From positions 1-64,000 of the forward strand of contig QDFX01000003.1 in the NCBI GenBank assembly GCA_003347645.1: a stretch of DNA of 64,000 nt. The letters are read 5' to 3'. The stretch's first letter is position 1. Every line of letters begins with the position of its first letter. Positions 2,976 through 10,234 of this stretch are shown one piece after another. The DNA comes from Rhizobiaceae bacterium CPCC 101076 (GTDB lineage: Bacteria; Pseudomonadota; Alphaproteobacteria; Rhizobiales; Methylopilaceae). Made by a program: the position numbers and the translations under genes. The notes under the pieces were generated by a model. That model saw only the letters and a list, made by a program, of their open reading frames with translations, did no database searches and had not been told where the DNA came from.

Positions 2976-3007
2976 AGCGGCTCCCTCGCATGAGGCGGGC
3001 CGCTTTT
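2976..3007 (+). terminator. rho-independent terminator before the tail-fibre-like gene
   Basis: The sequence AGCGGCTCCCTC pairs with GAGGCGGGCCGCT across a short GCAT loop and is followed by TTTTT. It closes the transcription unit that carries the genes at 2071 and 2702 and lies just upstream of the gene that starts at 3040. Confidence 0.65.
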
Positions 3008-3039
3008 TGCTGCCGAGAATTGGAAATAGGAGACCGAAA

Positions 3040-4281
3040 GTGCCTCGAAACGGATCAGGAACATACATCGTCCCGAACACCTTCACGCCGGGCACGGTCA
3101 TCTCGTCCTCCACGATGAATGCCAACTTCTCCGATGCGGGTCAGGCGATCACGGACTCGCTTGCCCGCGACGGGCAGGGCGGCATGCTCGGCCAGTTCAA
3201 GGCATCGGACGGAACGAACGGCGCTCCGGGTATCAGCTTCGTCTCAGACACCGATACCGGCATTCGACGGGTCGGAACGGGCGAGGTGGCTTTCGTCGCC
3301 GACGGCGCGGATGTCCTCACCTATTCGCCAACGGCCGTAGGGGCGGCGCAACCGTTCATGGCGGCCGAGGCGATCAGCGCCGCAAAGCAGGTCAATTTCG
3401 CGGCGGCTGGCTCTATCGTTGCGGCGGCCACGACCGATCTCGGATCGGTTGCTTCGAACACGGTCACGGTCACCGGCAATACGACCATCACCTCGCTCGG
3501 CACGGCAGCGGCCGGCGTCGAGCGCTGGGTTCGCTTCACCGGCACGCCGACGCTGACCTACAATGCGACCTCGCTGATTCTGCCCGGTGCAACGAACATC
3601 ACGGCAGCGGCGGGCGACATCGCCTATTTCAAGTCGGAGGGATCGGGCAACTGGCGCTGCTGGGCGTTCCTGCGTGGGTCTGGCGTTCCGGCCACGACGC
3701 CGGGCGTCACCGTCGACAACACGGCCCTTCGCTTCAACGGAACCGGCGGCGCGATCCAGACGTCGACCCTGGTCATCAACGACGACGGCAGCATCACCCA
3801 GCCGAGCGCGGGCGCCGAGACTATTCCGACCGGGACGACAGTGCAGCGGCCGACCGGCGTTGAGGGCATGATCCGCTACAATACGGATCTCGATCGCCTA
3901 GAATATTACGATGCCGGCGCATGGCGTGTCGTGCAGCGACGGGATTGGGATTTCACGAGCGCGGAGCAGGCCGTCACGGCTGGCGCAGAACTGGTTATGC
4001 CTCATGGACTTGGGGCCATTCCAACGAAACTGCAGATTGTTCTTCGTTGTAAGGCGGCGAACTTGGGATGGGCTGTGGATGACGAGGTTCACCGCATCAG
4101 TGACAGCGCGTTTGGCACCACGAACAACAACACGTCGAGTGTCGGGCTGGGCGTAGACGCCACAAACATCTATCTCTCGACGGACACGACCTTACCGAAC
4201 ATTGCGCCAAAGACTGGCGGCAACGCGACGACCATTACCGTCGCGGCGGCCTGGGCCTATGTCGTCCGCGCTTCGCTCTGA
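3040..4281 (+). CDS. phage tail-fibre or tail-appendage-like structural protein
   Basis: A 413-residue protein from GTG 3040, preceded by ATAGGAGA. The first 50 residues (PRNGSGTYIVPN, then GTVISSSTMNANFSD and SLARDGQGGM) match the N-terminal signature I know from many prophage tail-fibre or receptor-binding proteins. The rest is rich in Thr, Gly, Ala, Ser and Asn with alternating short strands, as in trimeric beta-fibrous shafts. About residues 285-310 (VEGMIRYNTDLDRLEYYD) resemble the RYN..L..LE motif common near fibre tips. No chaperone or peptidase domain is obvious. No other virion gene lies nearby, so it is either a relic or part of an appendage cargo. Confidence 0.7.
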   Translation: MPRNGSGTYIVPNTFTPGTVISSSTMNANFSDAGQAITDSLARDGQGGMLGQFKASDGTNGAPGISFVSDTDTGIRRVGTGEVAFVADGADVLTYSPTAVGAAQPFMAAEAISAAKQVNFAAAGSIVAAATTDLGSVASNTVTVTGNTTITSLGTAAAGVERWVRFTGTPTLTYNATSLILPGATNITAAAGDIAYFKSEGSGNWRCWAFLRGSGVPATTPGVTVDNTALRFNGTGGAIQTSTLVINDDGSITQPSAGAETIPTGTTVQRPTGVEGMIRYNTDLDRLEYYDAGAWRVVQRRDWDFTSAEQAVTAGAELVMPHGLGAIPTKLQIVLRCKAANLGWAVDDEVHRISDSAFGTTNNNTSSVGLGVDATNIYLSTDTTLPNIAPKTGGNATTITVAAAWAYVVRASL

Positions 4282-7479: not shown

Positions 7480-8274
7480 ATGACCCGGAAGTCGAAGCTC
7501 GGGGACGAAACGATCCGGGTCGAGGTTGCCGCTAGCGTCGCCGATATGGAAAAGGCGGCACAGCGTCGATGGGCCAAGCGCCTGATGGACATGCCACCCA
7601 CGGTCGAGATGAAAGGCGGGGCAGTCGCTCCAGACTTGAGCGGTAAGGCCACTTCCGAGGGATGGGTGGCACGCTTTGCCGACACGTGCGGAACGAGCTC
7701 GCTCGACTTCGCCAATCGCATTCTCAGCGATGTGAGCCGCATCGCGCCGGAGCGGGGAAATACAGCCGATAAGCCGGATGTCGATGCCGCCCTTGCGATC
7801 ATCCATGGCGTTCGGCCGGCCAACGAGATTGAAGCCATGCTCGCCGCCCAGATGGCAGGCACTCACATCCTCTCTATGGAGATGATGCGCAAGGCTCGGC
7901 ACACTGACAACGCGGTGATGCTGGACAGCTACAACAACATGGCCGTGAAGCTTATGCGCACGTTCACGGGGCAGGCAGAGGCCTTGGCGAAGCTACGCCG
8001 GGGCGGCGAACAGACAGTGAGGGTAGAGCATGTGCACGTGTACGATGGAGGACAGGCAATCGTTGGCCACGTCGAAAATCGGGGAGGGGGCGCTGACAGA
8101 AGGTGCGACCAACCCCGTGCAAGCATCGCGCCCGAAGCATTGGCCTATGTTCCAGGCGTGCCGATGTGGTGCGAAGACGAGGGCAGGGACACCATGCCAG
8201 TCGCCGGCGGTACGGGGAAAGGCCCGGTGTCGGATGCACGGCGGAGCAAGGGGAAGCGGCGCGCCGAAGGGTGA
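7480..8274 (+). CDS. conserved protein of rhizobial phage-like islands (first of an overlapping pair)
   Basis: A 264-residue protein. A helical central block (ANEIEAMLAAQMAGTHILSM, then NNMAVKLMRTFTGQAEALAK) and RRGGEQTVRVEHVHVYDGGQ resemble a family I know from prophage-like islands of Hyphomicrobiales and sphingomonads, always without assigned function. From about residue 185 the frame continues as a charged, poorly structured tail. That tail shares its DNA with a second protein in the +1 frame from 8030. The conserved RVEHVHVY segment lies exactly where the second gene begins. Function unknown. Confidence 0.7.
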   Translation: MTRKSKLGDETIRVEVAASVADMEKAAQRRWAKRLMDMPPTVEMKGGAVAPDLSGKATSEGWVARFADTCGTSSLDFANRILSDVSRIAPERGNTADKPDVDAALAIIHGVRPANEIEAMLAAQMAGTHILSMEMMRKARHTDNAVMLDSYNNMAVKLMRTFTGQAEALAKLRRGGEQTVRVEHVHVYDGGQAIVGHVENRGGGADRRCDQPRASIAPEALAYVPGVPMWCEDEGRDTMPVAGGTGKGPVSDARRSKGKRRAEG

Positions 8275-8371
8275 GCGAAACGGGTCGTATCGGCATGGCT
8301 TTCACACTCGCGAAGCTTTCGCCGAGCGGCGTCTTGTGGCGAAATGGCTGAGGGGGATCGGACGACTTTAG
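8030..8371 (+). CDS. HGG-motif Cys-rich small protein overlapping the previous gene
   Basis: Up to 113 residues. The core (CRCGAKTRAGTPCQSPAV, then KARCRMHGGARGSGAPKGE) holds four cysteines and a histidine laid out like a small zinc site, followed by RNGSYRHGFHTREAFAERR. This belongs to the HGG-containing family found beside the same partner gene in other rhizobial islands. GAGGG precedes ATG 8030, but starts at 8045 or 8147 are equally possible. The first 245 bases are also coding for the partner in another frame. The role is unknown; a small nucleic-acid-binding protein is a guess. Confidence 0.65.
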   Translation: MCTCTMEDRQSLATSKIGEGALTEGATNPVQASRPKHWPMFQACRCGAKTRAGTPCQSPAVRGKARCRMHGGARGSGAPKGERNGSYRHGFHTREAFAERRLVAKWLRGIGRL

Positions 8372-9340: not shown

Positions 9341-9533
9341 TCGGCCTATGACGCCCGAGCAGGTGGCCGAGCATTGGGGATGCAGTGCGAACCATGTTCG
9401 GAATCTGGTGAAGCGCGGCGAGCTGGAGGCGTTCAAGCTTGGCTTGCGGCTGATCCGGATCACGCCTCAAGCTGTCCGCGACTATGAAGAGAGGCAATCG
9501 AACAAGCCTCGGCAAGTACGGCTCCATCGTTAA
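9330..9533 (+). CDS. second excisionase-family DNA-binding protein
   Basis: A 67-residue protein from ATG 9330. It is nearly all an excisionase-type domain: MTPEQVAEHWGCSANHVRNL is the HTH, and KRGELEAFKLGLRLIRI is the wing, with a closing helix (QAVRDYEERQ). This is the common binding domain of phage and integrative-element Xis proteins. It overlaps the previous HTH gene, so both are likely made from one mRNA. No integrase lies beside it, and the next gene on the right is convergent. Confidence 0.75.
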   Translation: MDGNRPMTPEQVAEHWGCSANHVRNLVKRGELEAFKLGLRLIRITPQAVRDYEERQSNKPRQVRLHR

Positions 9534-10234
9534 GGGACTTGGCCGAGGAGCGCTTCAACTCGCTGGACGCGACCGACCCACGTTGCGGCTACCGGGCTTC
9601 TCCACTCGATCAGTTGAATGATCCGGGCGTAATCCTCGCCTAGCCGTCGGCCGAAGATCGGCTCGTGATGCGCGATCCGGTTTCGGAAGAACCTAACGTG
9701 GTATAGTTCGGAATACGCGGCCTCCCTTGCGATCGAGGCCTGCGTGTTCGTCGAGATCCCCGGGAACACCTCATGCAAGTGTGGCTCCCATAGGCGCTCG
9801 TCCTGACTGGCGAGGAACATCCATTGCCAGAAGGCGAACTTGAGATCCGCGACGACCTTGCCGGCTGTTGGTTCCTTAGCGGCTACGGCCTCAAGGTCTC
9901 TGACTGGACAGTAACCCCTCCGGGTTCGACGTAGGCTACGTCTGAAGCCTCGAGCCCACGGCCAGTTTTCACCATGCACCTTCTCGATGGCCTGCACCAC
10001 GGCATTTCTCATCGCCACCTCACAGACATGAAGCGGGAGCATGAAGGCGGCCGACACCTTTAGGTTCCACTGGTACAACGCCAGTGCTTCGGCGGTCATG
10101 CCGTCCTTGGCCTTGAGGTATGTGGCGAACCGAGGTGGTGATAGGACTAGAGGTAGGGTGTCCAACTCTTCGGTGGTGAACATAGGGTCCGTAGGTTCCT
10201 CGACATGGGAACCATACCCCAACCCTGTGGTCAT
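9530..10234 (-). CDS. Abi-like HEPN-domain protein, putative abortive-infection RNase
   Basis: A protein of up to 234 residues. It resembles the Abi family that opens with a short helical block (LSPPRFATYLKAKDG) and ALYQWNLKVSAAFMLPLHV, followed by the EVAMRNAVVQ motif. Near the C-terminus RNRIAHHEPIF contains the Arg-x4-His motif of HEPN ribonucleases. Proteins of this kind stop phage growth by cleaving cellular RNA. ATG 10234 is the longest start and ATG 10183 is an alternative; neither has a strong ribosome site. It converges with the excisionase gene, sharing four bases at their stops. Confidence 0.7.
   Translation of the reverse strand: MTTGLGYGSHVEEPTDPMFTTEELDTLPLVLSPPRFATYLKAKDGMTAEALALYQWNLKVSAAFMLPLHVCEVAMRNAVVQAIEKVHGENWPWARGFRRSLRRTRRGYCPVRDLEAVAAKEPTAGKVVADLKFAFWQWMFLASQDERLWEPHLHEVFPGISTNTQASIAREAAYSELYHVRFFRNRIAHHEPIFGRRLGEDYARIIQLIEWRSPVAATWVGRVQRVEALLGQVP

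Follow-up and report, generated by a model that had tools for sequence, protein, structure and literature searches.

Two conserved genes of alphaproteobacterial mobile elements overlap on the same strand, with evidence for selection on both reading frames in the first part of the overlap

The window (the whole stretch of 64,000 nucleotides that was analysed) contains two overlapping genes on the forward strand, here named gene A and gene B. B is read in the +1 frame relative to A, and both frames are open at the following places.

7480-8274, forward strand: gene A, 264 aa, of an uncharacterised family of alphaproteobacterial mobile elements
8117-8371, forward strand: gene B, 84 aa, an HGGxSTG-type CCCH protein, start codon GTG at 8117
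8030-8371, forward strand: longest open reading frame containing B, 113 aa, in the +1 frame of gene A
8030-8116, forward strand: open stretch of the B frame ahead of the B start, outside B and coding for A only
8147-8149, forward strand: ATG, an alternative start of B with which the overlap would be 128 bp

The start of gene A is secure because a stop codon lies two codons ahead of its ATG. The conserved core of the protein ends at VEHVHVYDGGQAIVG (about position 8070) and is followed by a variable C-terminal tail. Gene A matched nothing in Pfam, NCBIfam, or PADLOC, and the sequence search of the PDB gave no convincing relative. A cyanovirin-like identity was considered and rejected, as the PDB sequence matches behind it were weak (best E-value 0.0037, about 70 positions) and were taken as chance. 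Gene A was found in 0 of 17 other genomes of the window's family, so the A-B module was probably acquired.

Gene B matched the HGGxSTG family NF041373 with an E-value of 2.1e-12 and 46.5 bits against a cut-off of 29 (residues 46-81 of the long open reading frame), and it was above the cut-off in the genome search too. An earlier note on this DNA had pointed to a well-placed Cys/His/Gly pattern in the second protein, and the alignment confirmed it: the C-x9-C-x9/10-C-x2-H-G-G pattern of the family is kept, and Cys17, Cys27, Cys38, His41, and Gly42 are invariant in 50 sequences. DUF5763 (PF19067) was matched weakly by 17 of 50 relatives of B (best E-value 9.5e-6) and not by the window's own B. 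No PDB sequence relative of gene B was found, the defence-system models matched neither A nor B, and a literature search on HGGxSTG returned no papers. The Cys/His pattern suggests that gene B probably codes for a small zinc-binding protein that binds nucleic acids or other proteins. Matches to HGGxSTG also occur in genomes without any match to A (e.g., genome G008), in Haloferax, and in a Pasteurella phage; the NF041373 family definition likewise has members without A and is silent on overlap.

We searched the window's order and class together with the GTDB species set, plasmids, and viral contigs, which gave 137 loci with A; B adjoined it in 128. After anchoring on the Cys motif of B, 112 distinct A-B pairs were obtained, in which B was in the +1 frame relative to A in 85, in the +2 frame in 24, and in frame 0 in 3. 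Positions are counted from the first Cys of B (C1, window position 8165). A runs past C1 in 62 of the 112 pairs, always in the +1 frame, and these overlap-type loci span several alphaproteobacterial groups. A ends before the Cys motif in the remaining pairs, of which Bradyrhizobium-like genomes are typical, and some of these non-overlapping lineages have ATGA-type junctions in the +2 frame. On the poorly resolved tree of A, the overlap label required 5-10 changes versus 34 for shuffled labels. A plasmid of Microvirga lotononidis carries the same genes (WP_154661086 and WP_083861420) in the +1 relation and with a homologous start codon; NCBI annotates an overlap of 104 bp for them, and the stop of this A lies 54 nt earlier relative to C1 than that of the window's A.

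The A-B pair is carried on plasmids, viral contigs, and primase/helicase islands, and its neighbours in the relatives are Toprim/DUF7146 primase or primase-helicase genes, type I restriction genes, or virion genes. In the window, a staphylococcal-nuclease homologue (SNase, PF00565; 6634-7107, forward strand) lies immediately 5' of gene A. An Abi-like protein (9530-10234, reverse strand), which matches the PD-T4-5 phage-defence model with an E-value of 1.2e-14 and Abi_2 weakly, is coded shortly downstream of A-B. The protein coded at 3007-4281 on the forward strand partially matches families of phage virion structural proteins (phrog_6005), which suggests that the first 12 kb of the window contain remnants of a prophage. 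In the rhizobial loci L121 and L114, a type I restriction gene (HsdR) is located downstream of A-B; the position next to the pair may therefore serve to take up defence genes as cargo. In the gene table of a Microvirga terrae plasmid (L041, 5815-6096), which is stated to be incomplete, A is listed and B is not; the overlap may have led to B being left unannotated, but this need not be so.

The earlier note had put the shared DNA at about 245 bp (8030-8274), because the first ATG (8030) was taken as the start of B. Both frames are open there, but the real overlap in the window is 158 bp (8117-8274), counted from GTG 8117. A start at ATG 8030 was ruled out by the homologues: of the 59 loci read upstream of the B start, 31 have a stop in the B frame, and no start is conserved in that stretch. 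The conserved start lies at the aligned place N-P-(M/V), where 58 of the 62 overlap-type loci have ATG and 3, including the window, have GTG; in the 62nd locus the start was mis-picked by the search pattern, hence the count of 61 of 62. An ATG at the place of 8147 is absent from the Methylobacteriaceae relatives. In many relatives, GGAGG is found 8-9 nt ahead of the B start and is encoded by the E-E/D-Q-P-H-A codons of A; the window's own Shine-Dalgarno sequence before GTG 8117 is weak. Where B starts with GTG, the His of A becomes Arg. Overlap lengths in the 61 loci range from 86 to 167 bp, with a median of 143.

The placement of stops in the frame of A was compared with a null in which the synonymous codons of B were permuted within each sequence, so that the B protein and its codon usage were held. 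Across the 62 overlap-type loci, there were no A-frame stops in C1+0 to +46, and a stop was present in C1+46 to +122 in every locus. The absence of early stops was not a criterion for picking these loci, as A ends between C1-11 and C1+47 in none of all the pairs. Among 47 representatives with less than 75% identity, 0 stops versus 8.4 expected were found in the first interval and a stop in 47 of 47 versus 27.0 expected in the second, and neither extreme was reached in 500 shuffles. The 22 representatives with less than 65% identity gave 0 versus 3.6 (1.4% of shuffles) and 22 versus 12.7, respectively. In the non-overlapping lineages the same test gave 3 versus 5.2 and 8 versus 10.3, with no departure beyond chance.

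Codon choice and residue conservation were analysed in three zones of the overlap.

8117-8164, forward strand: zone Z1, B start to first Cys, both frames conserved above the null
8164-8211, forward strand: zone Z2, from the first Cys (8165) to +47, free of A-frame stops, with shifted third bases and conserved A-frame residues
8212-8274, forward strand: zone Z3 with the A stop TGA (8272-8274), A-frame constraint inseparable from the control

At fourfold third bases of B codons 2-15, G accounts for 57% in overlapping versus 39% in non-overlapping lineages, and T for 3% versus 12%. This shift was present in 37 of 43 sequences (p = 7e-7), differed between overlapping and non-overlapping lineages (p = 1e-3), and was missing from the part of B that lies beyond the end of A. 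For the Gly at codon 7 after C1, the third base is G in 42 of 57 overlapping versus 7 of 42 non-overlapping sequences, and an acidic residue is thereby retained in A.

The residues of both frames were also conserved. In Z1, 13 representatives of the window's class gave Z = 7.3 for the A frame and Z = 13.9 for the B frame. The A-frame identity in Z2 relative to the synonymous-shuffle null was 1.26-1.61 versus 1.10-1.13 in non-overlapping controls, and the Z2 signals were confined to overlapping lineages. The B frame was in turn conserved above A-synonymous shuffles (Z 9.7-19.5). The sequences share ancestry and are not fully independent, which was checked by the saturation of downstream silent sites (A-frame ratio about 1). 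In the window's class, the A-frame excess was 1.57 from the B start to C1, then 1.20 and 1.12, and 0.97 past the A stop. From C1+47 to the A stop, sequences with an A frame that is still open showed conservation, and those in which A had already ended did not; in class 21, the Z3 ratio was 1.26 in overlapping sequences and non-overlapping controls alike.

The tree-based rate test did not discriminate. Fourfold-site rates of B (Z2/Z4) were 0.21-0.66 in overlapping versus 0.49-0.64 in non-overlapping lineages, from few sites and with wide intervals, and they were left out of the support because overlapping groups and controls gave similar values. In OLGenie-like pair counts (dN/dS type), doubly synonymous sites were too few for a usable ratio. 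The rate of A-changing, B-silent substitutions in the window's class was no lower in Z2 than downstream (0.607 versus 0.559).

The overlap thus stands above chance, because both frames encode conserved proteins and because stops and codon choice depart from the shuffle nulls. A genuine dual-coding overlap, smaller than first claimed, is well supported by these comparisons of homologous sequences, most strongly in 8117-8211; the data likewise support purifying selection on both frames within the overlap in Z1 and Z2 only. The earlier proposal of dual coding is therefore supported for about 95 nt (8117-8211), where stop placement, codon choice, and residues agree; it finds no demonstrable support in 8212-8274, and 8030-8116 codes for A only. 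Stops in one frame among close relatives, which that proposal had named as evidence against itself, do occur within 8212-8274, as A stops at C1+53 or +65 in Microvirga versus C1+107 in the window (42-54 nt earlier), and were found earlier in 0 of the 62 loci.

Three other explanations were weighed. Only B might be functional in the shared bases, with the tail of A being neutral read-through to the next chance stop. This would fit the wide variation of tail length between lineages, the absence of the tail in about 45% of pairs, and the small reduction in the rate tests for the window's class. However, neutral read-through is difficult to reconcile with the stop pattern (0 of 62 at +0 to +46 and 62 of 62 at +46 to +122, against synonymous shuffles), or with the scarcity of T-ending codons (3% versus 12%) and the excess of G-ending ones (57% versus 39%) exactly in the stretch without stops, and the signal is missing from the non-overlapping lineages. 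We therefore consider it unlikely.

The silent-site constraint in B could also reflect a nucleic-acid element, such as an RNA structure or a binding site, rather than translation of A. The third-base bias is indeed position specific, and some conservation is seen in non-overlapping lineages too, but such an element gives no reason to expect that stops in one particular frame are first avoided and then obligatory, and this only in lineages where A is open; we regard it as very improbable. Programmed frameshifting that joins A and B into one product would agree with the +1 relation, which is constant over all overlap-type loci. Against it, 61 of 62 loci keep an ATG or GTG at the B start, often with GGAGG at good spacing, and in other lineages the genes are separate, some with +2 ATGA-type junctions, which makes frameshifting the least credible of the three, with almost no weight left to it.

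We therefore prefer the reading in which A and B form a conserved module, with selection holding the A tail over the first part of B and the remainder being a loose run-out of A, and we consider it quite probable. A and B would be a two-gene module conserved in alphaproteobacterial mobile elements, in which B would initiate inside A at GTG 8117, with its own ribosome binding and in the +1 frame. In the window's lineages, the A stop would have been lost or moved, so that A gained a tail of about 52 residues at its C terminus, read over the start and the Cys/His motif of B. Selection would keep this tail open for at least 46 nt past C1 and force the A stop within the next 76 nt. The first approximately 95 nt of the overlap would be dual coding, with A running out under loose constraint in the rest. 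B appears to predate the overlap and to occur more widely, and the A tail presumably came to extend over B, and not the reverse, because HGGxSTG relatives exist without A and B has a compact invariant motif. From the sequence comparisons, we infer that both A and B are translated. More tentatively, and with somewhat less than even confidence, the A tail may be selected to extend over and end within the Cys/His motif of B in several alphaproteobacterial groups, with repeated gain and loss, perhaps because the tail and B, or their translation, are interdependent.

A survey of 338 genomes judged no same-strand overlap longer than 60 bp to be real, and its authors gave holD-rimI of Enterobacteria, with at most 56 bp, as the longest real co-directional case (PMC2478687). 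This agrees with the earlier note that long same-strand overlaps are rare outside phages, and the A-B pair itself is carried on mobile elements. A-B resembles holD-rimI in that the overlap is on the same strand, is kept across genera, and places the tail of the upstream gene over the start of the downstream gene (PMC2478687). Unlike holD-rimI, it reaches 86-167 bp and comes with selection tests. It is thus well supported as a new case of a known phenomenon. Selection on both readings has seldom been demonstrated for bacterial genes in the same direction, and the A-B pair combines a length and an evolutionary depth found in no co-directional pair by that survey (PMC2478687), which makes it a good test case. 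The 61 measured overlaps, a non-overlapping control group, and frame-specific stops together provide a clean system for studying the origin of shared coding. In addition, real genes would be lost wherever annotation rules remove long overlaps.
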